Below, piece after piece: positions 43,980 to 64,000 of a stretch of 64,000 nt of DNA. Below the pieces are notes generated by a model, which saw nothing but the letters and a program-made list of their open reading frames with translations, had not been told where the DNA came from and did no database searches. Positions within the stretch are counted from its first letter, which is position 1. Each line of letters starts with the position of its first letter. Both the position numbers and the translations under genes were made by a program. Location of the stretch: positions 3,632,001-3,696,000 of the forward strand of contig NC_007760.1 in NCBI RefSeq assembly GCF_000013385.1, in the 5' to 3' direction. This stretch comes from Anaeromyxobacter dehalogenans 2CP-C. Lineage in GTDB: Bacteria > Myxococcota > Myxococcia > Myxococcales > Anaeromyxobacteraceae.

Positions 43980-45755
43980 CTACGCCTCCACTAGAACGGC
44001 TTCCTCAACGCCTTGGCGCGCGATGGGGTCGAGTACGCAATGGGCGCCGTCTCGTGAAGCGAGGGAATAGACGCGAGACGCGTATTCATTCGGTGCCGCG
44101 AGCACAAGTAACCGCTGCGCCCTCGTCGCGGCAACGTAAAGAACCGCTCTCCCCTCCGAGTCTTGGCGGGTCTCCCACTCGTCCAACAGTTGCTTCGTGC
44201 GCTTCCCGGGCGGCAGCACGACCATGACACCTGGGTACTCGCGTCCCTTCGCCGCGTGAACGGTGGTCGCGGTGCCGCGAAATTCGCACGGCGCCTCAGG
44301 CACCCGCCACTCCTTACCTGCCTTCTTCAGCACTTGCCCGGAGGCGCACGTGGTGCCCGTTGGCAGCAGCATGTCCGCACGGTCAAGCGCACACCGAGCA
44401 CGTTCGAGCCAGGATGCGTCGCCGATCCCAATGGACTCCTTCGCTAGCGAGCACAGGATGCGCAAGGCTTCTGTCCGTAGGGCAACTGAATCGATGCCGT
44501 TCCGTTGCGCGACCTCCTTCGGTAGGGCCGAGCTGCACTTGAGCCCGTGCTTCGCCAGTAGAAGGCTTTCGGCGTGCTCAGTCGCTGCGAGCAAGTCCGC
44601 AGGTCTGGGCGCTGCCGATCTGAACACCTCGATCGCAGAGGCGAGCTTCGCTACGCGTGAGGCTCCAGCGTCCTTGGTTCTTCCGACCGCTGCGAGGGCG
44701 TCTGCCTCCTGGTACGCCAACACCGCCCCATCCTCGGCGCTGATTCTGAGGGCTCGCAGCCGCACAACGAAGGCGTCGCCGAGACCGGCGTCGAGGGGCG
44801 GCTCGTAACCAAGGACGACAACCGGCGAAACCTCAGCCCCGTATCTACCGACAGCCGTGTCTGACCCAGCGGCGAGCTTTACACTGGATGCGAACCTGCA
44901 GATGTTCTCGGTACTCCTATGATTCCCAGTCAACGAAAGCTGGCTTGCGCTTACGAAGAGCCTCGCTGCGCGCCGTCCGTCAGCCCCACGAAATCGGTAG
45001 ATGTCCTGATTCGGATCTCCGACCGCGAGAGTCCGAACACCCGCAGCCATCAGCCGCTCTAGTATCTCGAGATCGGCGCTATTACAGTCCTGCACCTCAT
45101 CGACAATCGCGACGGGGAACCGAGCTGCAATCGCCTTGAGAACGGGCTGCCCGCGCGCCTCTCGCACGCGACTCAGAGCGAGCGCCCGTCCGTCCGCGCA
45201 CGTCATGTAGCCCCGAGCCAACAACTTCCCTCTGAGGGCGTTGGCCTCTGCGTTGAGCGCGTCCAGATGCTGCGCTGCGGCCTTCCGAAACGCGTACTCC
45301 ACGTTTCGGGGCTGGAGGGCGACGGCGTCGACGTCCTTGAGCTCGAACGCGCTCAGAGGAATCGGCGGCGGCGCGTTCTTCAGACGAAGATGAACCTTCA
45401 CTCCAAGCCGATCCCAAGAATCCAGGTACGTGACCGGCCTGCCGGGACACCATCTGTTCCTGAACGGCGCCACGAGGAATCGGCTGACGAACGCATCGAA
45501 GGTATCTACGAAGTGCGGATACTCGAATGCACTGGCGCGCCCTTCGCGCACGCAGCGCTTCCGAATTTCGTCGGCAGCACATCGGCTGAAAGATAGGACC
45601 AGCACCCCATGAGCTGCCTGAGCCCGCCCTCCCTCACGAAGGAAAGCTTCGACGATCACCCTCGTCTTTCCTGCTCCGGGGCATGCCGTAACGAACACCG
45701 TCTTGTCGCTTAGGACGACGGCTTCCTGTTCTGCCGTAAGGGCAGCGAACGTCAT
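43980..45755 (-). CDS. gajB: Gabija GajB-like UvrD/Rep helicase
   Basis: 591 aa, ATG at 45755, overlapping the GajA stop by four bases. Superfamily 1A helicase motifs: Q-motif LTAEQEAVV, Walker A ACPGAGKT, motif II VAIVDEVQDCN, motif III LAVGDPNQDIYRFRGA, motif IV-like LTGNHRSTENICRFA, motif V TTVHAAKGREYPGVMVVLP and motif VI VLYVAATRAQRLLVLAAP. In Gabija, GajB senses DNA ends made by GajA and hydrolyses (d)NTP/ATP during phage attack; it is about 100 residues longer here than the Bacillus protein. An OLD nuclease followed by a UvrD helicase in overlap is the Gabija signature. Confidence 0.9.
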   Translation of the reverse strand: MTFAALTAEQEAVVLSDKTVFVTACPGAGKTRVIVEAFLREGGRAQAAHGVLVLSFSRCAADEIRKRCVREGRASAFEYPHFVDTFDAFVSRFLVAPFRNRWCPGRPVTYLDSWDRLGVKVHLRLKNAPPPIPLSAFELKDVDAVALQPRNVEYAFRKAAAQHLDALNAEANALRGKLLARGYMTCADGRALALSRVREARGQPVLKAIAARFPVAIVDEVQDCNSADLEILERLMAAGVRTLAVGDPNQDIYRFRGADGRRAARLFVSASQLSLTGNHRSTENICRFASSVKLAAGSDTAVGRYGAEVSPVVVLGYEPPLDAGLGDAFVVRLRALRISAEDGAVLAYQEADALAAVGRTKDAGASRVAKLASAIEVFRSAAPRPADLLAATEHAESLLLAKHGLKCSSALPKEVAQRNGIDSVALRTEALRILCSLAKESIGIGDASWLERARCALDRADMLLPTGTTCASGQVLKKAGKEWRVPEAPCEFRGTATTVHAAKGREYPGVMVVLPPGKRTKQLLDEWETRQDSEGRAVLYVAATRAQRLLVLAAPNEYASRVYSLASRDGAHCVLDPIARQGVEEAVLVEA

Positions 45756-47599
45756 AACGTGACGAGCGCACTCAAGACCGCCTCGACCGACGACGGCACC
45801 GGCACCTGTGGCGTTATGCGGCGTGCGATCTCTTGAGCGTAGTCGCCCTTCCCAATTCCAGAGTCCTTGAGTCGCCGCACTAGGCAGGCACCTCGGTGTC
45901 CAGGGGGAGAACTCGCTACATCACGGTCCCACAGCAACGCGGACCTCGGCCTGAGTGCAAGGAACGAGTCACGCAGCACTTGCTCCATTTGCACGCTGGG
46001 TGGATTGCCGAGCAAGGCCGCCTCGAAGGTGATCGGCGAAAGCTGGACCGAGAGCCGGTCCGCGGCCTCAAGGCTTTCGGAGACTTCCTTCAGTGCTCGC
46101 CGGCGCTGAACGCCGCCCGCGCCTTCAAGATCGATTTCCTGTTTCGCTGTCTCGGATGCGGGGTCTTCGTCGGTGAGGACGACCACGAGGTCTGCGACGC
46201 GTTTGCCGCTCCCAGGATCAGGAGTGAGCAGGAGACGAACGTAAGGCTCGAAATCGACGCCGCTGATCGGCACGATCGTTGAGGCGGTCAGGCGCGCGAG
46301 TTCAGTAGACTTTCCTCTGTAGAGAACCTTCCCGAATGCGGGGATTAGCAGCGCCTCAGAAATGCCCTCGACCAATAGTACCCGGCGCGAAAAAAGCATC
46401 GCAGAGCGGGTAACGTCGAGGTAGCGGTCTATCTTCTCGCGCTCGTCTTCTCGCAACCGGATCTGCGCGAGCGATACTGCTGCCGAGAACGAGGACGCTG
46501 ACGCCGCCTCCCCGCCCCTGCCCGCAGCACCAGCGGGCGCCACCTCGGGCGAAACGTCGGGCCCAGCTTGCGTCCTAAGGATCACCACCTTCTTGGATCC
46601 CACTGCCGACGTGAGGTGAGGTGAGTGCGTTGATACGATGACTTGGATACGCCCCGCGTATTCCCCGGGACTCCTCGCTCTCCGCTGCGATTCCTCCGCC
46701 TTATCCCGCAGATACTCAAGCATCACAGCCTGAAGCTGAGGGTGCAGGTGTGCTTCCGGTTCCTCTACGAGGAAGAGCGTGAGGTCCGCATCCGCCGTAT
46801 TCGCAAGTTCGACGACAACGAGCGCAAGGAACAGCACGTTCGCGTAACCAAGACCCGACTCGTACAGATCCGCTGCAGGCATTCCAGCGAGTCCGAGCCG
46901 GAGCCGCAGGTCGCGCGCGAGGTCAGTCAGAGTCGGGTCCGCGAACCCGAGATGCGCTTCATGCGGGTGAACCCCCGCCGTGAGTGCGCGCACCCCCTCC
47001 TGCACCTGCGCTTCTGCGGCCCCAATGACTGGGTCTGCCTTGAGCAGCTCTAGCGCCTGCCTCGCCTTCGCGACAAGTGCTTCTCGCTGCTCGTCCGTAG
47101 CAGTCCGGCGCAGGAGGTGTTCAATCCTCCCAGGCGCGCTCGAGGCCAGTTCGCGTGACGCGTCTCGGAGCGCGGGCAGGTGTACGTGTCGGACGAGTTC
47201 CCTAGCTTTCGGCTCGATCTCCGGTGCATCGAGAGGCCCCACCACCCGACTCCGCTCCCCCCTTCGCTTCCCAGGCACTTCCGCATATTGGAGGCCGAGC
47301 GAGGCTGAGTCCGACGTTGGGCCACGCAGGCATGTGAGAAACGAGCCGCGCTGCCGATCATCAAGCGCAGAGTAGGTACCTCGAATCGAGAATGACTCGA
47401 AGCCTCTCGTAATGTCGCGTGGCTCGGGCCACCTCACTACGCGTCCATCGCTGGGCGGAGTCAGAAGACGAAGCGCTTCGAGTACATTCGTCTTGCCGGA
47501 ATTGTTTTCACCGGCGAGCACCGTCAGTGTTTCGTCGAAGTACACGGTCCCGTCGCGGAACGACCGGAATCGCGTCAGCTGCAAGCTCGACAGGTACAT
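45752..47599 (-). CDS. gajA: Gabija GajA-like OLD-family ATPase/TOPRIM nuclease
   Basis: 615 aa, ATG at 47599. ABC-type ATPase at the N-terminus: FRSFRDGTVYF, Walker A GENNSGKT (30-37), ABC-signature-like YESGLGYANVLFLALVVVEL, Walker B TLFLVEEPEAHLHPQLQ, then VIVSTHSPHLTSAV. TOPRIM domain with VLLVEGISEALLIPAF (Glu), ISGVDFEPYVRLL and LVVVLTDEDPAS (DxD). OLD-family enzymes nick or cut DNA; in Gabija the nucleotide-regulated GajA cuts phage DNA. Length agrees with GajA (about 580). 212 bp downstream of the CD-NTase gene and co-directional. Confidence 0.92.
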   Translation of the reverse strand: MYLSSLQLTRFRSFRDGTVYFDETLTVLAGENNSGKTNVLEALRLLTPPSDGRVVRWPEPRDITRGFESFSIRGTYSALDDRQRGSFLTCLRGPTSDSASLGLQYAEVPGKRRGERSRVVGPLDAPEIEPKARELVRHVHLPALRDASRELASSAPGRIEHLLRRTATDEQREALVAKARQALELLKADPVIGAAEAQVQEGVRALTAGVHPHEAHLGFADPTLTDLARDLRLRLGLAGMPAADLYESGLGYANVLFLALVVVELANTADADLTLFLVEEPEAHLHPQLQAVMLEYLRDKAEESQRRARSPGEYAGRIQVIVSTHSPHLTSAVGSKKVVILRTQAGPDVSPEVAPAGAAGRGGEAASASSFSAAVSLAQIRLREDEREKIDRYLDVTRSAMLFSRRVLLVEGISEALLIPAFGKVLYRGKSTELARLTASTIVPISGVDFEPYVRLLLTPDPGSGKRVADLVVVLTDEDPASETAKQEIDLEGAGGVQRRRALKEVSESLEAADRLSVQLSPITFEAALLGNPPSVQMEQVLRDSFLALRPRSALLWDRDVASSPPGHRGACLVRRLKDSGIGKGDYAQEIARRITPQVPVPSSVEAVLSALVTL

Positions 47600-47811
47600 T
47601 ATCCCCCAAGCCTTTGCGGGCCTGAATCAGCGTACTCCGCGGGCATGACGCTGTCCCGAAACTACCCTACTCGGTCACTCCTGCTGCGCACACGATGAGA
47701 GGCGGCAGCGAGGCGTGTCGCGCACTACGCGTCCTCTTGGCCTGCGGAAGCGTGCGCGAGGTCTGCGGACCCTGGGACATATGCGATTTGCTCGGGCAGA
47801 AGCACTGGTCC

Positions 47812-49269
47812 TCATGAGATCCGCACAAGCCGTCGCCCGGTCCTCACAACACACGCCCCCCGCTTCACAACGAACGCCTCGACCCAGTGAGTTCCGCGAT
47901 ACTTGGTATCCTCCCACTTCGACATGGCTCCGAGCTCGATACCTCCTCTGAGCCCCTTGGCCGCAGCGGCCTCCGATCCGGTGTTCACGACCTGCCAGTA
48001 AACGTCGCACGGCGGAGGTACATCTGTTTCCAGCTGAAAAAGAATGCTCACGTGCTTGGGCAGCAACTGGTCGGCGAGTTCGCTGATCTTCGGTCCTCCT
48101 CGACTGCGGTGAACCGCCGCAGACAGGCGGGCGTTCGACCCGAGTATCAGGGGCCACGGCGGCACCTGCGCATGAGGGATATCTTCACCCTGGGACCGAG
48201 CGGCCGCGGCAAGCGTACTCGCCGTAGACACCATCCCGAACCGCTCCTCGGCCGTTCTTGCAGCACGCGTAATCTCTTCTTTCCCGAGCCCTCGCTCAAG
48301 TAGCGGATATGCTTTCTTCAACTCGGTGGAGTGCACCCATTCCGAAATGTCTGTCCGCAGCGTATTCAACCAGCTCAGGAACGCCTGGCGCCGCTTCGGG
48401 TCCTCGTTCCAGCGATCTGCGAAGTTTTCGCTTGGCTCCGCCGGGTTCATGACGAAGAACTTTCCGTCCCTCACCTGGATGTACTGGGGCATCTTCTCAA
48501 CGATCGCGATTAGCGCATCGACCAGATCTGGCTCGTTGTCGTACGACAGCGCGGCGAGGGTGGTCAGAATGATCGACAGCGGCTTCTGATCCTCCTCCCC
48601 GCTAAATGTCTGATCGCGGTGCCGCTTCAACACCTGGACAGCCCGCTGCAGCGGCGTCCGAACCCGCCATTCCGGAACGTCCTCAACGCTCGCCCCGAGG
48701 GACTCCGCGAGCGCCGCCCTCCTTTCCCTCAGCGCGACGCGCATACGCTCTTTGAACCAGTCCGCGTACCGGATCGGATCGCTCTTCTGCCACTGAGCCA
48801 GCTTCTTGTCGCCCAACAAGATACCCGTGGGCTGTGCCTCTACGTTCGGAATCGATGGAAGCACATCCATGTGAAAGCTCTTCGACCAGTCAAGCGTCCA
48901 GCACCGAGTCGATGGCACTGTCAATGCGCCGAACTCTGGGTTCAGCTTTAGACGGCCGCCGACAAGCGACCACACGTCGCGCTGCGTTATCTCGTCCTTC
49001 GCGACTAGGAGCTCGCAGACCAAGTCGATGTCGTAGGCGCCGTTTCGGTTCATCGGCCGCACAACGGTCCCGAGCCGGAATGACCCCTGAGGGAAGACTT
49101 TGGGCTGGAATGGCTGGAGTTCCGAGTCCTCGGTCGCCAGCCAAGCACCAACCGCCTCGTATCTCTCGACGGCCTGATTCCGAAGTGGCTCCGGGATGTC
49201 CAAAGATTGCGTGACTTCGCTCAGGAGCGTACCGAGGAATTCCTGATTTCGACTACTCAGCGTCGCCAT
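47812..49269 (-). CDS. CBASS-like CD-NTase with C-terminal sensor domain
   Basis: 485 aa, ATG at 49269. Nucleotidyltransferase: PQGSFRLGTVVRP (G62/S63), YDIDLVCEL (D80, D82) and a third acid D135 in FHMDVLPSIP, all intact, so catalysis is likely. The helical part (TPLQRAVQVLKRHRDQTF) follows. The C-terminal 130 residues (GGPKISELADQLLPKHVSIL, then CDVYWQVVNTGSEAAAAKGL, TKYRGTHWVEAFVVKRG) look like the adenylyl/guanylyl-SMODS C-terminal sensor (AGS-C). In CBASS such enzymes make cyclic oligonucleotides on phage infection. An effector with SLATT fold sits next to it. Confidence 0.88.
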   Translation of the reverse strand: MATLSSRNQEFLGTLLSEVTQSLDIPEPLRNQAVERYEAVGAWLATEDSELQPFQPKVFPQGSFRLGTVVRPMNRNGAYDIDLVCELLVAKDEITQRDVWSLVGGRLKLNPEFGALTVPSTRCWTLDWSKSFHMDVLPSIPNVEAQPTGILLGDKKLAQWQKSDPIRYADWFKERMRVALRERRAALAESLGASVEDVPEWRVRTPLQRAVQVLKRHRDQTFSGEEDQKPLSIILTTLAALSYDNEPDLVDALIAIVEKMPQYIQVRDGKFFVMNPAEPSENFADRWNEDPKRRQAFLSWLNTLRTDISEWVHSTELKKAYPLLERGLGKEEITRAARTAEERFGMVSTASTLAAAARSQGEDIPHAQVPPWPLILGSNARLSAAVHRSRGGPKISELADQLLPKHVSILFQLETDVPPPCDVYWQVVNTGSEAAAAKGLRGGIELGAMSKWEDTKYRGTHWVEAFVVKRGACVVRTGRRLVRIS

Positions 49270-49399
49270 TCGCTACTACCTTTCCAGGCTCCGGATCCCA
49301 GAACTCGGCCGGCTGCGCCCACCTGCCGACTCCGAAACTCGGGCAGCTTCGCCGCGCCGCCTACAAGCGCGGAATCTTCGCGACCGCTTGGCAGCGATC

Positions 49400-49897
49400 C
49401 TACACATCGACGCTGTACGTCGCCTCGCCCGCCTCAATGCCTTTTCGCGCGCGCTCGAACGCCCACCTAGGAATTCCTGGACTCGATCGGTTCAGGTCAT
49501 CACGTCGCCCGCTCAACTCCTTGAGTAGCTTGGTCGCACGTGAGTCGTCAGCGACGGCCGCCGCGTCGATTTCGTAGAAGGTACGGGCCTTGTTCCTCAA
49601 TTCGTGGAACGCTGCAGCGGCGAGTCGATGCGAGTTGGCGCGTCTCTCTGGGTTGAGGAACGTACCTACGGACGTCAGGGCAGCCACGAATATTGCTAGA
49701 CCCGCGGCGAGCGCCTCATGGCTCTTCAGCGCTGACACCCCTGCTACTGCAGAGGCGAACGCCGCAGGCAGGCCGATGCACAGATGGGCGTAGCTCCAAG
49801 CATCCGCAGCGTTGTAATGGGCCTTGGAAGAATAGGCGCAGTCCTCCTCGACACGCTTCGCCTCGCGAACGAGAGCATCTCTGAGTCCATCAACCAT
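49400..49897 (-). CDS. SLATT-domain two-TM protein (putative effector)
   Basis: 165 aa, ATG at 49897. Two membrane helices (about 37-56 and 62-81: AHLCIGLPAAFASAVAGVSA, LAAGLAIFVAALTSVGTFLN) with NPERRANSHRLAAAAFHELR and RARTFYEI-like KARTFYEI after them, the SLATT (SMODS/SLOG-associating two-TM effector) layout. In predicted conflict systems SLATT proteins form pores when activated by nucleotide signals. The N-terminal AKRVEEDCAYSSKAHYNAAD is the usual soluble part. Lies between two CD-NTase genes: 130 bp before the first, 30 bp after the second. Confidence 0.82.
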   Translation of the reverse strand: MVDGLRDALVREAKRVEEDCAYSSKAHYNAADAWSYAHLCIGLPAAFASAVAGVSALKSHEALAAGLAIFVAALTSVGTFLNPERRANSHRLAAAAFHELRNKARTFYEIDAAAVADDSRATKLLKELSGRRDDLNRSSPGIPRWAFERARKGIEAGEATYSVDV

Positions 49898-49927
49898 TAT
49901 GATTACCCCACGCAGAAAGGTTCGGCC

Positions 49928-51271
49928 TTATGCAGGGAACGCTCGATTGAAGAAGCGGCGCCATGCGCGCCTGGCCGCCACCAGGTCGCCGGCGCGTTCG
50001 GAAGCCAGAGCGTCCGTGGCAAAGCCGAGGCCTGATCTGATCGCGTCGACCGCTGCCAACCTCTTTGCATCCGTAGAGCAAGCGGGCACTTCGCCAGAAA
50101 TGCCGAGCGGGTCGGCGATAGGCTGACAACCAGTAACATGAAACCTTTCCAGCGTGGCGGCGATGCATTCCGCATAGGTCATCCCAACACGACACACGCC
50201 GGCGGCGGCAAGCTGCAGCTCGAGATGGAAGGACTGAATCGGAACGGCGGTAGCGCGACAGTTGCGCCAGTGCTTCAGGAGCAGTGCAGTACCTCTAAGC
50301 TTCCGGCCGCTTCTCTTGTCCGCATCGTGAATGTACTTGTTGTGGCCTTCCGGACTTGTTTCGAGCCACCCTCCCTTTCCGTTCGGGATCCGATACAGCG
50401 GTCTAGAATTGGCCGACATCCCGAGAAACACGGCGGGAACGACGTCGACAGGATCTTCGCCGTCTGCGAACCTCACGACCACGGCTTGAAGGTCTCTCCT
50501 AATTTCCGTGTTCTTGAACTTGTCCTGAAGAGCGATTCGAACGTTCTTCAGTACGGTCTCCGAACTGGTGTAGGCGTCGCCCCACCGCACGTCGTCGCGG
50601 GCGACGACGGCGAAGTAATCGACATCACTGCTCGCCCTTACGGCAGTCCCACGGGAGTGGCTCCCGACGACCGACAGTCTGTTAACCGAAAAGGACTCTC
50701 TCAGCGCTGTCTCAATCGAATTCGCGTGTGATTGCGCCCTGCCGAAGTCAGCATCAGTGGGCTGAATGGAAGCAAGCAGTTCGGTAAACAGAGCCGAGAT
50801 CCCGTCGCGCGCCGCGTCAGCGTCGGCGCTGGTTGCACTGCGAGTAGTGGCTTGGGCCGCAGGTTTGGGGTCCGGCAGCGACCGAGGACCGCAGCCGTCC
50901 GGCTCGGGTTCGATTCTCTGCCGCTCCGCAGCACGGGCAACGCCGGCTACGAGGACGACGAAGGCGACCACGAGAATCCCGCCGACCAGTACGGCTGCGA
51001 TGGGGTGCTCAGAGGCCCACTCCTTCGCCCTCCGGAGCGCCGCTTCGAAGCGGGTCGGCATCCAGACCTCCGCGACGAACTTCGAACCGTTCGGTGCTGC
51101 TTGTGTCACCACCAACGTCCGCCCATCGTCGAACGCGCGGACCCAAGCGTTCTCGGCACGTTGCATGCCGCCCCAGTCCGGAGGGGGTAGCCACTCAGGC
51201 ACGTGCACTCGCTTGCCTGAGATCAACTCAGGCCAAGCGCTGCTCAGCCAATGGTCCCAAGCCATTCGCAT
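49928..51271 (-). CDS. Membrane-anchored CD-NTase/SMODS-like nucleotidyltransferase
   Basis: 447 aa from ATG at 51271, with GGGGACC upstream; the longer frame to 51400 is not supported. Residues 1-90 are a soluble beta-rich domain (WPELISGKRVHVPEWLPPPD, VVTQAAPNGSKFVAEVWMP). A single TM helix spans about 91-113. The nucleotidyltransferase starts at about 150: VVGSHSRGTAVRASSDVDYF (G203/S204, D216, D218) and D276 in DPVDVVPAVF; then LRGTALLLKHWRNC. All catalytic positions are kept. A TM between an extra N-terminal domain and a cyclase is unusual for CBASS. It shares the strand and close spacing with SLATT and the other cyclase. Confidence 0.85.
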   Translation of the reverse strand: MRMAWDHWLSSAWPELISGKRVHVPEWLPPPDWGGMQRAENAWVRAFDDGRTLVVTQAAPNGSKFVAEVWMPTRFEAALRRAKEWASEHPIAAVLVGGILVVAFVVLVAGVARAAERQRIEPEPDGCGPRSLPDPKPAAQATTRSATSADADAARDGISALFTELLASIQPTDADFGRAQSHANSIETALRESFSVNRLSVVGSHSRGTAVRASSDVDYFAVVARDDVRWGDAYTSSETVLKNVRIALQDKFKNTEIRRDLQAVVVRFADGEDPVDVVPAVFLGMSANSRPLYRIPNGKGGWLETSPEGHNKYIHDADKRSGRKLRGTALLLKHWRNCRATAVPIQSFHLELQLAAAGVCRVGMTYAECIAATLERFHVTGCQPIADPLGISGEVPACSTDAKRLAAVDAIRSGLGFATDALASERAGDLVAARRAWRRFFNRAFPA

Positions 51272-51325
51272 TCGGTCCCCGCCTGCACGCGGCACGCGCG
51301 CGTCCTGCGAGAGTACACGGCGGGA

Positions 51326-51580
51326 GTGACACGGGACGGCCGTGCGGCTCGTGACGGATGGACGTCCGCAACTGCACGCGGGGCGTTCTCGGGTCGGCAT
51401 TCAGGCACAGCTACTCTCGGTACGTCCCGCCTCCCGACCATCCGCGAGGTCGCCGAGCGACTCCGTGTGAGCAGGGCAACCGTGTACCGGCTGGTGGCGG
51501 AGGGACGAATCCCATCCGTGAGAGTGTCGTCCGGAGCGATTCGCGTGGCACCCGACTGGCCTGCCTACCGAGGAAGGTAG
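51326..51580 (+). CDS. Excisionase-like helix-turn-helix protein (copy B)
   Basis: 84 aa if GTG at 51326 is the start; uncertain, no ribosome site. LPTIREVAERLRVSRATVYR, then LVAEGRIPSVRVSSGAIRV form an HTH_17/AlpA-type domain, paralogous to copy A at 43687. DNA similarity starts at TTCAGGCACAG in both, upstream of the HTH. Divergent from the membrane cyclase gene, so could control it. The pair brackets the Gabija and cyclase genes exactly. Confidence 0.6.
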   Translation: MTRDGRAARDGWTSATARGAFSGRHSGTATLGTSRLPTIREVAERLRVSRATVYRLVAEGRIPSVRVSSGAIRVAPDWPAYRGR

Positions 51581-51713
51581 CCGTCTAGGCATTCCGATCC
51601 TCCTCTCGCCTGCGGTCAAGCTGGGTCCACGGCCGGCCCCGCCGCACCCCGTCGCATCTCGGCCGCCTCCTGCTCGGAGCGAACCATCGGGTGAGGACCG
51701 ACCGCTCGGCGCC

Positions 51714-52613
51714 TCATGGGCGAACGGCCTCTCCCCACGGATCGTCTACGAACAAGTCGTTCGTGATGTCACCTGCTCGGACGCGGCGGGAGTAATCCTC
51801 CGCCAGCTCGCGTGTCACCGTATAGGCGCAGCTCAAGCACGACCGAAAGACAGAGTCGTTGTACTCGCGCACGCGCCGCTCGTCCCACTTCCCTGGGATC
51901 ACGATTGTGTCGTCGGAACCCGCGGGGATGCTCGTGTTCACGTAAAGGACATGTCTCGGCGAGACGCTGACTACGTAAGCTGACCTCCGTGCCTCCAGCT
52001 CTGGCCCGGAAACGCCACGCCTCTTGAGTTCGTCGATGAACGACATGTTCGACGGATGCTTTCCGACGCCGATCGGATTGTCACTTGTGATGAACGGAGC
52101 TGCCGCGTCGGCCCGCACCAGCATCCACACCGACTGCAGCAAGAACGGCTCCAACCCGAAGGCGCTTATCGCGGTGCCAAGAAACCCATGAACGACCTGT
52201 GCGTTGACCTGCGCCTGCTCTTCACGCGCGAGCGGCTGGTCCGTCCGCCTCTGCATGTCGCGGTAGTAGCGACGCGAGATCGGAACCCGATGCAACTGGA
52301 CGGCTACGAATGCCGCCAGTTTCCTCTTATCTTCAACCGTTAAGACGCCGGCCTCCAAGCGATCGAGCGCAGCGGTCAGATCATTCTCGAACAGCCGCTG
52401 AAACTCATTCTCGATTTGCTTTTCATCGACGAGTTCCAGACCTGGGACCTGATCGATGTCCTTGAGTACGTACCAGTCCTCGATCTGCGAAGTGGACTTC
52501 GCCGCCTTGGCCTTCGTGGGACCGAACTCGCGATGGAAGTCGAAACACTCGAGCTTGTTCTCCGAGTTCAGGAATCGCCGCAGATACGACTGAGGCACGA
52601 AGTGACAGCGCAT
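51714..52613 (-). CDS. DUF4238 protein
   Basis: 299 aa, ATG at 52613. Opens with MRCHFVPQSYLRRFLNSENK, the hallmark of DUF4238, and shows conserved FVAVQLHRVPISRRYYRDMQ, FITSDNPIGV and CLSCAYTVTRELAED. DUF4238 proteins are found mostly in genomic islands; function unknown. The HFVPQ motif and the FITSDNP loop recur in all members I remember, so an enzyme is likely, perhaps a nuclease or protease. 73 bp after the HEPN-like gene; last gene of the BREX-side transcript. Confidence 0.85.
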   Translation of the reverse strand: MRCHFVPQSYLRRFLNSENKLECFDFHREFGPTKAKAAKSTSQIEDWYVLKDIDQVPGLELVDEKQIENEFQRLFENDLTAALDRLEAGVLTVEDKRKLAAFVAVQLHRVPISRRYYRDMQRRTDQPLAREEQAQVNAQVVHGFLGTAISAFGLEPFLLQSVWMLVRADAAAPFITSDNPIGVGKHPSNMSFIDELKRRGVSGPELEARRSAYVVSVSPRHVLYVNTSIPAGSDDTIVIPGKWDERRVREYNDSVFRSCLSCAYTVTRELAEDYSRRVRAGDITNDLFVDDPWGEAVRP

Positions 52614-52686
52614 CCGCAGTCTCCGAACCGGGAAGCACGCGGAGCGCTTGCTTCCCGAACAAAGGTCCGAACCGAAGAACCGGCAG

Positions 52687-53565
52687 CTAGGAGTTATCGC
52701 TGTTGATGTAATCCTGACAGCCGTCGCACAAGTCCCCGCCCCCGATCACGGGAGCATAGCAGCGCATGCATTCGCCCACCGTCTCAATAGCTCGGCACTC
52801 GGGATTGGTGCACACGGCTATGCCGTTCTCCACACAAACAAGCGACTCCGTTCCGCAGCTGTCACACCACTGAGCATCCACGGGATCCGGATTGTGTTTC
52901 GGATGGTAGGGCTCAAGTTCCTCACGGATGGCGATTAGATCTTCGCTGCTCAGTTCCCGGTACTTAGCGGTCCGGCGAAGCCACGCCTCGTGGCGCTCCT
53001 GCTCTAGCCGGCGAGCGATTTCGCGGAGGTCCCGGAGCCGTTCCCAAACCTCGGGGGAAAGATGTCTCTCCAGGTCCGTGGCCAAGTTGTCCCGAAGGAA
53101 CAGGTACGTGAACTCAGAGAGTCGCCCGATGAGGTTCTGCGACTCTTGCAGGTTCAACTCGAACTCGTAGTGTTCGAGACGGTTCCTCAGCAACTGGGCC
53201 TTCCTGAGGAGTTTCGCGTCTCGATCGCTAATCCGGATCTTCGAGCAGGACTTCAAGCGCTGAAGCGCTTCATCGAAATCAACCGTCTTCGCGTCAGATT
53301 CACCTGCTCGCGCCACATCCTTGAAGATCAACGACCAGTGCTCTTGCCTGAGCCGCTCCTTGAGCAGCAGCAGCACGCCCGCGAATAGATGCAAGATCGC
53401 GTACTTGTGAGATCGCGGATCCGGATCGTCCTTCAGGAAGAAGTGCTCGATCCCCGACTGGATGAAGTCGATGCCGTTGCTGAGCAGGCTCAGCTTGAGA
53501 CCAGGAGGCGCCTCGTGCTTCGCCCCCTTGGTTGCTGCCTTCACTGGATCCCCGATGTCCGACAT
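52687..53565 (-). CDS. HEPN-like zinc-ribbon protein
   Basis: 292 aa, ATG at 53565. The N-terminal half is helical: residues about 25-140 include LLSNGIDFIQSGIEHFFLKD and an RNRLEH (R127-x4-H132) matching the HEPN ribonuclease motif. A central amphipathic region is followed by a C-terminal Cys cluster (WCDSCGTESLVCV, CTNPECR, CMRCYAPV, LCDGCQDY) able to hold two zinc ions. HEPN proteins with this motif cut RNA in toxin and abortive-infection systems. The HEPN assignment rests on the motif and context; the exact family is not recognised. 126 bp downstream of the PHP-ATPase. Confidence 0.65.
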   Translation of the reverse strand: MSDIGDPVKAATKGAKHEAPPGLKLSLLSNGIDFIQSGIEHFFLKDDPDPRSHKYAILHLFAGVLLLLKERLRQEHWSLIFKDVARAGESDAKTVDFDEALQRLKSCSKIRISDRDAKLLRKAQLLRNRLEHYEFELNLQESQNLIGRLSEFTYLFLRDNLATDLERHLSPEVWERLRDLREIARRLEQERHEAWLRRTAKYRELSSEDLIAIREELEPYHPKHNPDPVDAQWCDSCGTESLVCVENGIAVCTNPECRAIETVGECMRCYAPVIGGGDLCDGCQDYINSDNS

Positions 53566-53691
53566 AGAGTACGCCTCAGAATGATCGAGTTCTGTTAACG
53601 ACGATGGCTCACGGTGACGTCAACGAGGCGTGCGCGTGCAAGGCGTTCCCACCCTTGGTGCGAACGGCCTCGGAGGAACCAAGCTCGAAGC

Positions 53692-56382
53692 TCAGAACCC
53701 ATACTTCTGTCGCCGGAGCTCGAACGCGCGGCGGCCGCCTTCGAGCACCTCCTCGACGAGTTCGCGAACGCCGCGGGCGTCGATCGCGCCCATGTGCTTC
53801 GTCGGGAGCGGGCCCTCAGGGTCGCCCGCGCCGCTACGCGGTGCGAGGCCAACGATTAGCTCGGCGTCGCCGAGCACCGGGATGTTGGCATTGTGCGTGG
53901 AGAATACGAACTGCCGACGCCGCTTCTCCTCGCGCATCTTGGGGACGATGCTCTCGGTGATGAATCGATTGTCGAGGTCATCCTCCGGCTGATCCACCAC
54001 CAAAGGGGCGTCGGACTCCAGGAGCAGCAAGAGGAGCACGGCCGTGGCCTTCTGGCCCGTCGAAAGGTCCTCGAGCTTCTGCCAGCTCGCCTCGTCGCCA
54101 TCGGGTGCGGTGTTCAGCTCGATGGTCGTCGTGGCTGGGAGGTCCAGCTCTTCGACCTCCATCCACACAGACTCGGGAGCCTGCGCAAGCTTCTCGGCCT
54201 GCGTCGGGAGCAGGCCATATTTCGAAACCAGGGCCTCCTTGCCGCTGCGACCAGCAGCTGCGAGCTCGCTGAGTGAAAGTTGCTCGACCATCCGCAGGGT
54301 CTCAAGAGCCTCTGAAAGCCGCCCGCCAACTTTCTCCTTCAGCACGGTCATCAGCTGCTCGCGCCCGGCGGCGAAGCTGACGCGAACGCGGACGCGTCCC
54401 TCCAGCCGCTTCGTCACCTTCTTTGCCGCGCGCTCGAGAGCGCGGAACTGCTCGGCCTTAGCGTTGTCCCAGTCAACCAAACGGATCCTGCGCGCCTCAC
54501 GCTCCCCGGAGAGACGCTTCTCGAGCACGGTTCGCTGCTCGCGAAGGGGCCGCAGTTCCTCGATCTGCTTCTTGAGGCGAACGAATTCGGCACCGTCGAT
54601 CTTCGCCTTTTGAAGCTCGCGAAGCGTCTTCTCGTACGCTTCGTCGATAACCTTCTGATGCTTGTCCCACTCGGACTGGAACGATGTCCGCTCAGCGTCG
54701 ACGGCTGTCACGGCCCCTTCGATGGCGGCCGCTGCCTGCTCGATGACTTGCTGCAAGGTCGCGAGCGTCGCCTTCAGGCCGCGCAGCCTCTCGGCGTTCG
54801 GGAGGTCATCCGTGACGCTGTCGAGGAATGACACGTCCAGCGGCACTGCGGCGCGAAGTCCCGTCGCCAAATGGCGCACCCGATTCACCACGCCGTCCGC
54901 CTGCTTCAAGAGCTGCTCCTCACGAATGAGGACGCTTTTGTCCTTCATCTTCTCTTCGAGGCCCGCTTCCTGAAACCGTTTGAGGGTTTCCTCCAGCTTC
55001 GGAAGCGCTGCAAGCCTCTCGTCGACCTTCGTGAGCTCCTCGGCAGCACTGGCGACGCTCTTCCGCGATTCGGCAAGCCCGTGCTTCTTTTCGGCCTTGT
55101 TCACCTGTGCCGCGTCGTCCGGTGCGATGAACCGGTCGAGGAGCCGCGTCAGCTTCTCGCCATCCTTAGTCAACTCGGAGATCTCGTGCTGGCCGAACAC
55201 CTGCGCGCGCGGCACCACGTCGATCGGCCTGTACGGGAGCGTCTGCCCTGCGTCATCTTTCACCACCGCCGCGTTCGGAACAGTGCGCTCGATGACGTAC
55301 TCACGCCGCGCGGGATGGTGAACGCGAACCACAAGCGAGATGCGCGTGCCGTTCTTCAGCACGTGCTTCACGATTCCATCGTGCGCAACCTTCGCGTCCT
55401 GCCCGAGCGGCTCGAGGTCGAGCACGTGGCGAAGGCTCTCGATGACAGTCGACTTCCCCGTGCCGCGCCCGCCGATCAGCACATTCAGGTTCTCGTTGAA
55501 GCAGATCGCGCGGCCGTCGAGGAAACCACCCTGCCAACTCATCGCGACGAACTCGGCGTGCGCCTCCGGAACGGGGTCGCTCCCTAGCCGAATGCGCGAG
55601 ACCGGATCGAGGAACGCCTGGCGGAGCCCCTCAAGCGATGGCTCCGTCATTTTCACCCAGCACGTCGATCCGGGTGCCGCGAGGTCTTCGGGCTTCGTGA
55701 CGTCGCCCGCGTTCACGATGGCGACCGCCGTCGTCGCGTCCGGGCTCGTCTCACGTCGATAGTCGGCGTTCTGGTTCTTGAGGATGGGGCGTTTGTCTTC
55801 GGGCGCGTCATCAACCGAGCCCGGGATCTGCACGCAGACGAGGTTCGGATCACGCCAGGCGTTGACGCGTGCCTGGCCGTGCAACGTATGAAGAAGTCCC
55901 TTGTCGTGGGTGACGTGTGCGGCGATCGTGACGCCCCCTTGCTCGCGCACGCACTTGAGCAGGTCCGAAAACGACTTCTTGCTGAGCGAGGTCGACGGCT
56001 CGGGTTTCGTGATGTCGAGCTGGCCCAAGTAGCGCTGCAGTGCGCCGTCTGTCGTTTCGGGCGAGTACAGGCAGAGCACGTGCACGCCCTCGCTCGAGGC
56101 AACCTCGAACCCGGGGAAAACCGTGATGCCGCGCGGCCTGGCTTCCTCTTGGAAGATGGCGATGGACCCGGCGTCGTTGTGATCCGTGACCGCGATGACC
56201 TCGATCTCGAGATCGATGCAACGGTCCAGCAGCTTTCTGACGTACGTGCGCTCGTCCATCCCGTGGTCGCTGCCCCGGAACGTCTGTGAGTAGTGGGCGG
56301 GGTTCACCTGAAAGGCACAACGGCAAAACCTCGCGCCCTTGGGGAGCGCACTGGCGTTCTGCAGCGGCGACGTTTCGGGCAT
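53692..56382 (-). CDS. TrlF-like PHP-AAA ATPase, BREX-associated
   Basis: 896 aa; ATG at 56382 chosen because GAGGCGAGC precedes it and the extended frame lies inside brxL. The N-terminal 250 residues are a PHP-type phosphoesterase (IEVIAVTDHNDAGSIAIFQE, ITVFPGFEVASSEGVHVLCL, GGVTIAAHVTHDKGLL); the first HxH motif is replaced by FCRCAF, so it may be inactive or altered. Then comes an SMC-like ATPase: NVLIGGRGTGKSTVIESLRH, a long coiled coil (about 470-700), the signature LSTGQKATAVLLLLL and Walker B LVVDQPEDDLDN, ending in the FSTHNANIPVLGDA switch. This fits TrlF-type ATPases. Ten bp from BrxL, so it belongs to the BREX operon. Confidence 0.82.
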   Translation of the reverse strand: MPETSPLQNASALPKGARFCRCAFQVNPAHYSQTFRGSDHGMDERTYVRKLLDRCIDLEIEVIAVTDHNDAGSIAIFQEEARPRGITVFPGFEVASSEGVHVLCLYSPETTDGALQRYLGQLDITKPEPSTSLSKKSFSDLLKCVREQGGVTIAAHVTHDKGLLHTLHGQARVNAWRDPNLVCVQIPGSVDDAPEDKRPILKNQNADYRRETSPDATTAVAIVNAGDVTKPEDLAAPGSTCWVKMTEPSLEGLRQAFLDPVSRIRLGSDPVPEAHAEFVAMSWQGGFLDGRAICFNENLNVLIGGRGTGKSTVIESLRHVLDLEPLGQDAKVAHDGIVKHVLKNGTRISLVVRVHHPARREYVIERTVPNAAVVKDDAGQTLPYRPIDVVPRAQVFGQHEISELTKDGEKLTRLLDRFIAPDDAAQVNKAEKKHGLAESRKSVASAAEELTKVDERLAALPKLEETLKRFQEAGLEEKMKDKSVLIREEQLLKQADGVVNRVRHLATGLRAAVPLDVSFLDSVTDDLPNAERLRGLKATLATLQQVIEQAAAAIEGAVTAVDAERTSFQSEWDKHQKVIDEAYEKTLRELQKAKIDGAEFVRLKKQIEELRPLREQRTVLEKRLSGEREARRIRLVDWDNAKAEQFRALERAAKKVTKRLEGRVRVRVSFAAGREQLMTVLKEKVGGRLSEALETLRMVEQLSLSELAAAGRSGKEALVSKYGLLPTQAEKLAQAPESVWMEVEELDLPATTTIELNTAPDGDEASWQKLEDLSTGQKATAVLLLLLLESDAPLVVDQPEDDLDNRFITESIVPKMREEKRRRQFVFSTHNANIPVLGDAELIVGLAPRSGAGDPEGPLPTKHMGAIDARGVRELVEEVLEGGRRAFELRRQKYGF

Positions 56383-56392
56383 TGCGCTCGCC

Positions 56393-58447
56393 TCACTCGA
56401 CCAGCGACTTGAAGACCGCGTCGGACGCGTCCTTGTAGAACTCGATGTTGAGCTTGGTCCACAGCTCGTCGGGCAGGTCGTTGAGCTGGCGGCGGGCGGC
56501 CACGGGCATGAGGAGCGTCTGCGCCTGCTTATCAACCGCCAGCTCGGCGACGCGGACGGCGTTCGGGATCATCTCAATCGACCCGCCGAGGTTCAGCGCG
56601 CCAACGACGACCGTTCCCCCGCGCGTGTTGCGGCCAAGAAGTGCTCCGCACAATGCGACGAGCACCGGAATGCCAAGGCCCGCGCCAGTCTTGTCGGTAT
56701 CCAGGGCGCGCATCTGGATCGAGAACTCGTGCTCTCGAGGGTTTCGGTCGCCGACGAGCTCCTTCGCACGTGTGTAGAGGTTCTGCTCGCCGACCTTCAC
56801 ACTCTCTCGGAACGTGGGCGGCGTCGGCTGGTTCAACACCTTCACGCCCGCGCCCGGGCCACAGGTGACCTCGACGCGATACAGGCCCGGGCCCGCGTCC
56901 GGGCTCGATGGGCTCACAGCCCACACCTGGCCAGGCGGAAGCGGGTCGCTCTCGATGGCCTCGTCGCTGTGGAGTTCGGGTGTCGAGACGAACTGCTCCA
57001 CACCTTCGGAGCCGAGCATGTAGCTGAAGTGCGTGTTGCGGAACTCGCTCTTGAAGCAGCGCTTCTGCTGCTCCTTGACGCGGCGGCGTGACTCGAGCGC
57101 GATGCGCGCGATCCACTCGAGATCCTCGTCGGGAACGGTCGCCTCAGGATCCGGGAAGAGCAGCTTCGTCAGGCCGCTCACCGTCTTGTTCACCGCCTCG
57201 ATGTCACGACCCGACAGCGCGCCACCGAGGTGAACGCGTCCCTGCATCACCGAGACGCGGTTGCCCGAGCGCAGCTTGCTCCAGCATTCACTCAGGAAGT
57301 CGCTCACAAGGCCGAAGTGATCGGTGAAGTGGTCGTTCGGGTTGAGCTTGGGGAAGTCCCAGCCCGGTACGAAGGCGTGCAAGCGGTCCATGAACGCCGT
57401 GTCGTTGCGCATCTCGGGAGGGAGCGGGCTCAGCAGGTGCGCCACGCGCTGCTGCTGCTCGACATCAACGTCGAAGTTGCCGACCATCACGATGCCGCCT
57501 TCGGCGCGGATGTTGTCCTTGCCGCGGCTGAACTGGCCGGAGGCCATGTAGCCCTTCATGATGTTGACGCCGTCCTTCTGATCGAAGGAGACGCCGGACA
57601 CCTCGTCGAAGCACACGACGTCATACTGGCAGACCAGACCGCGCTGGCCAGTCGCGTTGTTCACGAACATCTTGGCGACCGTCGCCTTGCCGCCGGAGAT
57701 GAGGTGCGCGTAAGGCGAGATCTGCTGGAACAGGTGGCTCTTGCCCGTGCCGCGCGGCCCAAGTTCCACGAGGTTGTAGTTGCGCTCGACGAACGGGACC
57801 ATGCGTAGGATGGCCACACGCTTCGCACGCTCGGTCAACGAGGAAGGTTCGAGACCAATCGAGCGGATGAGGAAATCGACCCACTCCTGTGTCGTGAACG
57901 CGCGGCGCGCCTTCCCCATCACCTCGAGCACGTCAGACTTCGACATCTGAATCGGGCGCATCGACTCGATGGAGAAGGGGCGCCCTCCCTGCTCCTGGGC
58001 AGCGACTCCGTCGTAGGCCAGCGTCACCTCGGCGTAGAAGCCGTCGGTGAGCATTCGCTCGTTCTCACGCACGAACTGGTCGTCGATGAGAACGTCGCGA
58101 AGCGCCAGACTGGGCAACTCGGCGACGAACCGATCGTTCTTCGCATCGAGACGCGCCTTGACGATGTCGATGAGCTTGACGGTACCGCCCTCCTTCGCTC
58201 GGGCCTTGAACAACTCTTCCTCGCCGGTGCGGACGGTGCGATCGCGGAGCTGCTTCTCGACGATCTGGAGTCCCTCGGCGATCTCCTTCTCGTCCGTACT
58301 CGCGCAGTAGCGGCCGAGAAGGAACTCGACCACGTAGGTCGGCACCGGATACTGGCGCGCGTACTTACGAACGAGATCCTTCCGAACGAGGTAGCCGTCG
58401 AAGACTTCGGCCGCCCGCTGGTCGAGATGATCCAGGGTCATGGTCAT
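56393..58447 (-). CDS. brxL: BREX BrxL (Lon-like ATPase)
   Basis: 684 aa, ATG at 58447, overlapping the PglZ stop by four bases. Standard BrxL length. N-terminal domain (YLVRKDLVRKYARQYPVPTY, EFLLGRY), AAA+ core with Walker A LGPRGTGKSHLFQ, Walker B VVCFDEVSGV, and EGGIVMVGNFDV; C-terminal Lon-like domain (HEFSIQMRALDTDKTGAGLG, GTVVVGALNLGGSIEMIP, TLLMPVAARRQL). The Ser of the Lon dyad seems replaced (DKTGAG in place of DGPSAG), fitting a non-proteolytic role. BrxL is part of type 1 BREX and acts in phage exclusion after modification of host DNA. Confidence 0.93.
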   Translation of the reverse strand: MTMTLDHLDQRAAEVFDGYLVRKDLVRKYARQYPVPTYVVEFLLGRYCASTDEKEIAEGLQIVEKQLRDRTVRTGEEELFKARAKEGGTVKLIDIVKARLDAKNDRFVAELPSLALRDVLIDDQFVRENERMLTDGFYAEVTLAYDGVAAQEQGGRPFSIESMRPIQMSKSDVLEVMGKARRAFTTQEWVDFLIRSIGLEPSSLTERAKRVAILRMVPFVERNYNLVELGPRGTGKSHLFQQISPYAHLISGGKATVAKMFVNNATGQRGLVCQYDVVCFDEVSGVSFDQKDGVNIMKGYMASGQFSRGKDNIRAEGGIVMVGNFDVDVEQQQRVAHLLSPLPPEMRNDTAFMDRLHAFVPGWDFPKLNPNDHFTDHFGLVSDFLSECWSKLRSGNRVSVMQGRVHLGGALSGRDIEAVNKTVSGLTKLLFPDPEATVPDEDLEWIARIALESRRRVKEQQKRCFKSEFRNTHFSYMLGSEGVEQFVSTPELHSDEAIESDPLPPGQVWAVSPSSPDAGPGLYRVEVTCGPGAGVKVLNQPTPPTFRESVKVGEQNLYTRAKELVGDRNPREHEFSIQMRALDTDKTGAGLGIPVLVALCGALLGRNTRGGTVVVGALNLGGSIEMIPNAVRVAELAVDKQAQTLLMPVAARRQLNDLPDELWTKLNIEFYKDASDAVFKSLVE

Positions 58448-63800: not shown

Positions 63801-64000
63801 CAGCCAGTCCTTGCCCTGCTCGCGCGCAAGCTCGCGGCACTCGTCGAGCGACAGCGCCATGCCCGACTCCGGCTCGACGAGGAGGTCGTTCTCCGCGAGG
63901 AAGCGCGCGAACAGGAGACGATGCCAGTGCTCGTAGGCGGACTCGCGGGTGAGCCGCTCGGTGGTCTGGGTTCCTTTGCGCTCCTCGAGCTTGTCGCCGA
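60798..64000 (-). CDS. pglX: BREX PglX adenine methyltransferase, N-terminus outside window
   Basis: The frame is open to the right edge; beyond an internal Met at 63860 it reads AYEHWHRLLFARFLAENDLL, a typical PglX segment, so the gene starts outside. Methyltransferase motifs: SAM site VLDPCMGSGHFLAFALPI, and motif IV NVPY (in LVATNVPYLARG), a variant of NPPY. C-terminal third carries the specificity region and ends HYTRAAKLAARECAKGGKS. In BREX, PglX methylates adenine in an asymmetric site on host DNA; phage lacking the mark are blocked. First visible gene of the operon pglX-pglZ-brxL-trlF. Confidence 0.93.
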   Translation of the reverse strand, partial: GDKLEERKGTQTTERLTRESAYEHWHRLLFARFLAENDLLVEPESGMALSLDECRELAREQGKDWLVLASDFAQRMLPQIFRAGDPVLEVALPPEKRQELEAILERLPRAVFTADDSLGWVYQFWQADQKDAVNASEHKIGADELPAVTQLFTEDYMVLFLLHNTVGAWWAGKVFAAKPELARTAVSEDECRAACAVQGIEWRYLRFVREGDAWRPAPGTFSGWPRAAKGLTVLDPCMGSGHFLAFALPILVALRQAEEKLSIAEAVDAVLRDNLFGLELDPRCTQIAAFNVGLTAWKLAGYRPLPALNLACAGLGINAPVSEWTALAAGDRPAEQAMKQLYELFRQAPTLGSLIDPTRVGGELFVAQFDKIRNLLSSALASEKSEDAELAVVAQGLARAATLLAVKYTLVATNVPYLARGNQSDVLAQHCESHFADAKTDLATCFIERCRSLLAPFGAAALVTPQNWLSQDYYASYRKRLLRDARFELAGQLGPGAFSGISGEVVKPLLIILSGRSHDAAHEFLAIDTTPFASAVDKAAALCADALHKVNQARQLINPKCRISMEEASAEPRLSKFTIYSNGIQTGDSPRYLRSFWELPALDERWAAQQTTVDATTSYGGMSQAILWENGAGSLAKAAENASRQTVLRGKEVWGRRGVLVSAMGSLNVSLYLGTLFDDNTVAVVPASESHLAPIWAFMSDTGYHDAVRRIDKALKVRGPLIEVPFDIGAWSGAVLPVPHALDPTQWIFGGHPRGASNPLQVAVARLVGYRWPRQRQATFLGFPALGPDGLERHVDDDGIVCLPSLRGEAPAAERVRALLADAFGAEWSANKLSELLAAVDFGGKSLDDWLRDGFFEQHCELFERRPFVWQIWDGRKDGFSALVNYHQLAAPNGEGRRILEKLTHTYLGDWLDRQRADQKAGIEGADGRVAAAEHLKRELEKIIEGEPPFDLFVRWKRLQQQPVGWEPDIDDGVRVNIRPFVAARPLTVRARAACILRVTPDIRWGKDKGKEPTRQKADFPWFWGWDESAQDFAGGKEFDGNRWNDLHYTRAAKLAARECAKGGKS

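Follow-up and report, generated by a model that had tools for sequence, protein, structure and literature searches.

A SLATT effector gene flanked by two CD-NTase genes of different clades in Anaeromyxobacter dehalogenans, a recurring variant of type I CBASS

A 64,000-nucleotide stretch of Anaeromyxobacter dehalogenans 2CP-C (the window; positions 3,632,001 to 3,696,000 of a 5.01-Mb single-contig genome) was found to carry two genes for cGAS/DncV-like nucleotidyltransferases (CD-NTases), designated cyc2 and cyc1, on either side of one gene for a SLATT protein. The three open reading frames (ORFs) lie on the minus strand in the transcription order cyc2, SLATT, cyc1, with intergenic gaps of 30 base pairs (bp) between cyc2 and SLATT and 130 bp between SLATT and cyc1 (Table 1). 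ORFs, families and gaps agree with a sequence-only reading of the same DNA, which had placed a SLATT protein with two transmembrane (TM) segments between two co-directional cyclases. The locus is a recurring variant of type I CBASS (cyclic oligonucleotide-based antiphage signaling system) and not a unique invention, and we tentatively propose that both cyclases act as separate sensors feeding one SLATT pore effector, in what would be a two-input type I CBASS. The observations behind this proposal are the anatomy of the locus, its intact motifs and the repeated occurrence of loci in which several cyclases accompany one recognized effector.

Both nucleotidyltransferases harbor a complete active site, as had been claimed. 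cyc2 matched SMODS (9.5e-17, residues 159-316) and the PADLOC cyclase model PDLC00776 (7.7e-64), and its GS, DxD and third Asp motifs are intact (GSHSRGTAVRASSDVD and VDVVP). By profile (5.8e-29) as well as by fold, the solved structure closest to its core is that of Pseudomonas aeruginosa ATCC27853 CdnD (6p8u), with 20% identity and a TM-score of 0.80 by target length; cyc2 has no HORMA or TRIP13 gene beside it but carries an N-terminal domain (N-domain) and a predicted TM helix, and it failed the NCBIfam CBASS_cyclase_b equivalog (110.4 bits against a cut-off of 200). cyc1 matched SMODS (2.3e-9), a PADLOC cyclase model (3.7e-151) and, at its C terminus, AGS_C, thus bearing out the claim that one cyclase has a C-terminal sensor. 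Its motifs are likewise intact (GSFRLGTVVRPMNRNGAYDID and MDVLP), and the closest solved sequences are PDB 9woo, a cyclic GMP-AMP (cGAMP) synthase, and the clade G enzymes SmCdnG and Bradyrhizobium CdnG (7ljn); cyc1 itself adjoins SLATT and misses the cut-off of the NCBIfam CBASS cGAMP synthase equivalog (78 against 150). The intact motifs led us to reject the idea of a dead paralogue in either case, and since the two gave no mutual BLASTP match even at an E value of 10, we also rejected their being recent duplicates.

The protein encoded between them scored 139.7 bits with NCBIfam SLATT_4 (NF033632, cut-off 55), matched the PADLOC two-TM (2TM) effector PDLC00712 (1e-61) and fell slightly short of the cut-off with Pfam SLATT_4 (24.2 bits against 27). 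Two hydrophobic stretches were apparent on the Kyte-Doolittle scale, family scans show no separate ligand-binding domain, and sequence comparison with solved structures yielded none (best E value 0.18, an aldolase). In PMC7159879, which credits Burroughs 2015, the SLATT family is given as a predicted nucleotide-responsive pore former. The locus resembles type I CBASS in that a CD-NTase adjoins a co-directional predicted pore effector of the SLATT/2TM or S-4TM kind, in the intact GS..DxD..D site of both cyclases and in lacking ancillary genes of CBASS types II, III and IV among ten proteins scanned (43980-60822), where no ubiquitin-like, HORMA, TRIP13 or QueC-type gene was recognized; the HORMA and TRIP13 genes that accompany CdnD or CdnC in type III CBASS are thus absent from the scanned neighbors of cyc2. 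It differs from type I in having two CD-NTases of different clades per effector, one of them apparently membrane-anchored. Most CBASS operons consist of one synthase and one Cap gene, according to PMC10419184, and our literature search turned up no description of a two-cyclase CBASS, the surveys of Burroughs 2015 and Millman 2020, which may contain one, being beyond its reach.

A cyclase with the N-domain and TM helix of cyc2 was present in the genome of the window and in two others among 195 Myxococcota, namely, A. soli SG29 (G034) and A. terrae SG22 (G038), whose proteins are 57% identical to cyc2. Because these two differ from each other at 1 of 451 residues, we count them as one observation. 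Their genes are arranged in the order TM-cyclase, a different soluble cyclase (PADLOC PDLC00823) and SLATT (46% identity), separated by 16 and 3 bp; in A. soli the reading frame of the middle gene continues upstream, and the gap figures use the start chosen as likely. The second cyclase of this TM-cyclase lineage therefore differs by branch, being CdnG-like in the window and of the PDLC00823 type in A. soli. In a comparison of 11 SLATT sequences the window and A. soli proteins were reciprocal best matches (46%); we rejected SLATT lineage as proof of a TM-cyclase plus SLATT core, as the tree does not settle the relation between these two. The A. soli locus is also in a defense island, beside different systems than those of the window, and two large DpdE- and DruE-like helicases are encoded downstream of its two-cyclase operon (L037:3-7805). 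Relatives of SLATT were found in 5 of 195 Myxococcota genomes at an E value of 1e-6 and relatives of cyc1 in 3 of 189 at 1e-15, the genome of the window included in both counts. No relatives came from a first genome scan using cyc2 alone as the query. In viral scans cyc2, SLATT and the N-domain matched nothing, nor did cyc2 in a phage scan or the N-domain in a plasmid scan; a phage scan with cyc1 gave one unannotated record.

Loci with several cyclases were not confined to Anaeromyxobacter. Together with the window, the 11 loci returned by a genome scan with the cyc2 family make 12. Five of them encode more than one cyclase: L057, L062, the window, and L053 with L054, which belong to A. soli and A. 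terrae and represent one event. L057, from a proteobacterial metagenome-assembled genome (MAG), comprises a cyc1-related cyclase (29% identity to cyc1 over 382 columns, without AGS_C), a four-TM (4TM) protein of the PDLC00719 family and a cyc2-type cyclase. In L062, from an acidobacterial MAG, three cyclases accompany a single TM protein, and this protein matches effectors of single-cyclase relatives at about 1e-13 to 1e-14. The remaining seven loci have one recognized cyclase. L058 starts at a contig end, with its upstream side out of view, and no TM effector was recognized in L060.

Among 13 viewed of the 32 plasmid records matching cyc2, two have a pair of cyclases flanking one effector: Rhizobium sp. 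NXC24 pRspNXC24a (AGS_C cyclase, 4TM protein and small cyclase, gaps of 15 and 19 bp) and Arthrobacter sp. J3.49 pJ349-116 (one TM effector with a cyclase on either side, gaps of 8 and -4 bp). Both loci are tight and co-directional like that of the window, and the Rhizobium one shares AGS_C, but their effectors are of the 4TM/S-4TM kind and their cyclases have no recognized hydrophobic N-terminal domain, judging by cyclase lengths and, for Arthrobacter, also by sequences. The other 11 have one recognized CD-NTase each; in six of the 11 S-4TM or SLATT adjoins it, and in one (Streptomyces) an AbiEii-type nucleotidyltransferase does so instead. Nine of the 133 records matching cyc1 were viewed: the Rhizobium twin, two tandem CBASS (Jannaschia and Shewanella), Rhodococcus pPE111 with two separate nucleotidyltransferase/SLATT pairs, and five with a single CD-NTase. 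Single-cyclase loci remained the rule among those viewed, in line with the statement that CBASS normally carries one cyclase and one effector; the layout of the window, which the sequence-only reading had not seen described, is rarer but not unique.

Two regularities support a shared effector. All multi-cyclase loci found with a TM effector have one recognized effector per two or three cyclases, and each cyclase type, where single, has such an effector as its partner: cyc1-type with a PDLC00712 SLATT in Rhodococcus pPE111, a PDLC00770/AGS_C cyclase with another SLATT in L115, and cyc2-type cyclases with 4TM effectors. The three plasmid SLATT relatives adjoin one nucleotidyltransferase each. 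A 34-cyclase tree shows no sister relation between partners from the same locus, which are therefore not fresh duplicates. Judged from gene arrangement, the three genes look functionally linked, and the link that had been proposed from spacing gains from the recurrence of cyc2 with SLATT in A. soli and A. terrae and of two cyclases with one TM effector in Rhizobium, Arthrobacter and the proteobacterial MAG.

We then considered the N-terminal part of cyc2, which had been described as a beta domain followed by a TM helix; the hydrophobic stretch was confirmed, whereas the domain is mixed alpha and beta. The reading frame is open to 51400, and we placed the start at the ATG at 51271, because alignment with the A. 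soli protein supports it. AlphaFold gave block-mean confidence (pLDDT) values of 75-86 over residues 1-70 in the whole protein and of 83-91 for the domain folded alone, the latter model being built from two sequences, and predicted a single long helix followed by a small, mostly beta part. Foldseek found no PDB match to the domain below 0.001 (best E value 0.36), and Pfam gave sub-cut-off matches only. cyc2 has only one strong hydrophobic stretch, whose counterpart is conserved in A. soli; AlphaFold placed a helix at residues 90-116, yet with block pLDDT below 60, and a low-confidence linker before the core. The ratios of K+R to D+E on the N and C sides of the helix are 3/3 and 3/3 in the window and 4/1 and 3/1 in A. 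soli, which leaves its orientation undecided by the positive-inside rule. Nucleoside triphosphates occur only in the cytosol, and a single TM helix puts the N-domain and the cyclase on opposite sides of the membrane, which makes the topology a puzzle. A cytosolic N-domain would leave the cyclase outside the cell, where it could not work, so either the domain lies in the periplasm or the helix does not simply span the membrane. Small separate relatives of the N-domain, of about 121 and 126 residues, are encoded in the myxobacteria G101 and G115 (E value about 1e-5, 35% identity). Their hydrophobic C termini are weaker than the helix of cyc2 (best 19-residue means of 1.72 and 1.44 against 3.11); a TM tail is likely in the G101 protein and doubtful in the G115 one by this measure. 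In G101 the relative is followed by an HTH_3 gene with a hydrophobic segment of its own (2.05).

In the proposed two-input scheme, cyc1 (CdnG-like, with its AGS_C sensor) and cyc2 (CdnD-like and membrane-anchored by its N-domain and TM helix) would both be active, each sensing a different infection cue and each making cyclic oligonucleotides; the signal from either would suffice to trigger the single SLATT, which would permeabilize the membrane and so abort infection. Catalysis, the sharing of the effector, a sensing role for the N-domain and phage protection are what we infer here. If several cyclases do share one killer, CBASS would be a multi-input circuit, which would bear on how it survives phage sponges or nucleases that destroy one signal; a shared effector would also bear on how small pore effectors with no evident sensor domain recognize their trigger, and a membrane-anchored CD-NTase would raise the question of what these enzymes sense at the envelope. 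A bolder version, which we regard as somewhat doubtful, is that CD-NTases of several clades sharing one pore effector are a recurrent, unrecognized layout and that in Anaeromyxobacter the anchored cyclase watches the envelope, phage entry and replication being sensed separately.

Several findings weigh against a two-input circuit. The exact cyc2-SLATT-cyc1 trio had no second instance in the genomes and plasmids searched, so that co-occurrence elsewhere extends to cyc2 with SLATT and to cyc1-type cyclases with SLATT but not to the three-gene set. Cyclic tri-adenylate is the product of P. aeruginosa CdnD, and guanine-containing dinucleotides are those of CdnG enzymes; should products follow clade, the signals differ and the small SLATT must recognize both, the weak step in the scheme. 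The 130-bp gap ahead of cyc1 is wide and may hold a promoter; no consensus sigma-70 promoter was found at 47500-51800, gaps included, nor any minus-strand terminator, two negatives that carry little weight. Wide gaps occur elsewhere too, in L057 (523 bp), L062 (162 and 215 bp) and the Rhodococcus pair (476 bp). In Rhizobium NXC24 an extra downstream gene encodes a 172-residue protein that has a single hydrophobic segment, at its N terminus, and matches no family; it may act as another effector. As a control, the 4TM family PDLC00719 was traced to 17 plasmid records, of which six were viewed, and to two genomes among 398 from proteobacteria, including that of L057; of the eight loci viewed, only two carry two cyclases (Rhizobium and L057), two have one (G531 and Priestia) and four have none within 3.5 kb. 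Twin loci thus recur as an addition to one-cyclase pairs, but they are in the minority.

SMODS genes were present in 48 of 195 Myxococcota genomes. At least two matches within 12 kb occurred in 14 of these genomes, always on the same strand, the counts being taken by eye and several of the 14 sharing one conserved cluster and not being independent. The comparison set consisted of 40 SMODS-positive genomes (28 Pseudomonadota and 12 Acidobacteriota, two seed genomes excluded). Same-strand pairs within 5 kb were not significantly enriched (7/48 against 1/40, P = 0.067; P = 0.17 with a divergent pair counted), and the difference within 12 kb (14/48 against 1/40, P = 0.001) comes from related genomes, many with one cluster. 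These surveys undercount, as the same genome gave two matches in one scan and one in another. The scarcity of close pairs in the sampled non-Myxococcota genomes also speaks against the two-input proposal.

As the main rival we consider it conceivable, if unlikely, that cyc2 and SLATT form an ordinary CBASS beside a separate or effector-less cyc1 (or that cyc1 and SLATT do so, with cyc2 added) and that the genes met by chance in the island. Such a meeting would be helped by the density of the island, with BREX, TrlF, Gabija and DUF4238, and would fit the 130-bp gap, the tandem CBASS loci known here from plasmids and one genome, and the rarity of cyc1-like enzymes in the phylum, which suggests that cyc1 is probably a recent arrival; the window and A. 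soli also differ in where cyc2 and SLATT lie with respect to the second cyclase. However, the tandem loci each carry their own effectors while the window has one, the second cyclase of A. soli lies within the operon, between cyc2 and SLATT, and the SMODS clusters were same-strand in all 14 Myxococcota genomes, dependent on one another as these are.

The sequence-only reading had suggested a relay, or a cyclase that restrains or feeds its partner, and the sequence points to none of these over two parallel inputs. By analogy with Panoptes (OptS/OptE), one cyclase might continuously supply a signal that holds SLATT closed or baits phage sponges while the other triggers it, which we hold to be improbable. 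PMC12657218 describes a decoy cyclic nucleotide restraining a TM effector, and cyclases of different clades would suit two opposing ligands; Panoptes also pairs a nucleotide synthase with a TM effector. Its mCpol synthase, beta-barrel S-2TM effector and inhibitory logic set it apart, though, neither protein has a homologue among the three genes, and family scans gave SLATT no separate ligand-binding domain. Equally improbable is a relay or AND gate, in which the membrane cyclase would sense an envelope event and license the soluble one (through its product, docking or a hetero-oligomer) before SLATT opens. The anchor and the unmatched N-domain are compatible with it, and solved CdnD and CdnC are bound by HORMA partners according to structure titles, with no HORMA or TRIP13 among the ten neighbors scanned; the partner cyclases, CdnG-like in the window and PDLC00823 in A. 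soli, are not of one type, which disfavors a specific interaction.

A defense island occupies the right third of the window, and its lower GC content at third codon positions (about 0.67-0.86) compares with mostly 0.8-0.98 for the called genes to its left. The sequence-only reading of the locus had mentioned neither this island nor the HTH_17 ORF. In addition to the genes in Table 1, it encodes a PDC-S64-like protein. The HTH_17 ORF (excisionase/MerR-like), divergent and overlapping the 5' end of cyc2, is a possible regulator or excisionase-like remnant of a mobile element. Gabija-like genes and DUF4238 adjoin the two-cyclase locus in both the window and Rhizobium NXC24 (L045:10005-13308), where DUF4238 overlaps a helicase gene (names as annotated there); this common neighborhood may be ordinary defense-island company.

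Table 1. Coordinates of the two-cyclase locus, its neighbors and the separate N-domain relatives
Feature	Position	Strand	Length or residues	Basis
cyc2, N-domain, TM helix and CD-NTase (P. aeruginosa CdnD-like)	49928..51271	-	447 aa	
cyc2 N-terminal alpha+beta domain	51056..51271	-	residues 1-72	AlphaFold models
cyc2 predicted TM helix	50945..51001	-	residues 91-109	Kyte-Doolittle peak 3.11 from residue 91
cyc2 catalytic core	49931..50800	-	residues 158-447	GS..DxD..D intact
SLATT, 2TM predicted pore effector	49400..49897	-	165 aa	
cyc1, CD-NTase with C-terminal AGS_C sensor (CdnG/cGAMP-synthase-like)	47812..49269	-	485 aa	
cyc1 AGS_C domain	47818..48177	-	residues 365-484	PF18134, 6.5e-24
GajB and GajA (Gabija)	43980-47599			
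HTH_17 ORF	51251..51580	+		PF12728, 2.7e-10, above cut-off
DUF4238	51714-52613			
TrlF-family ATPase, after the BREX genes	53692-56535	-		
BrxL (BREX)	56393-58447	-		
PglZ (BREX)	58444-60822	-		
PglX (BREX)	60798-63860	-		
N-domain relative, G101	L078:1495-2172			
N-domain relative, G115	L079:1504-1884	-		

The genome of the window has a third CD-NTase gene (L074:6129-9211; G000:C1, about 1,997,000-2,000,200) near a SAVED-PDDEXK effector gene, which probably belongs to a separate CBASS. Twin cyclases were also seen in SAVED-type loci. In L064 (4368-9875) two adjacent cyclases have a SAVED-M48 protein on one side and an E1-E2 (ThiF) protein on the other. L065 (3583-10630) is alike by gene size and has a third cyclase following its E1-E2-like gene; families were typed only in L064. 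L070 (4485-9821; G033, Anaeromyxobacter) has a cyc1-like cyclase, SAVED-HNH, a small second nucleotidyltransferase and an Mrr-like protein in series. L072 (3061-12564) encodes a cyclase, SAVED-CHAT, an extracytoplasmic function (ECF) sigma factor, a zf-HC2/TPR/CHAT protein, a C25-peptidase-like protein and a second cyclase of the PDLC00822 type; L071 and L073 resemble it, second cyclase included, and L067 to L069 do so in part, families being typed in L072 alone and the others compared by gene size and N-terminal similarity. Going by its gene content, this myxobacterial cluster appears to be a CBASS-like system tied to a sigma factor.

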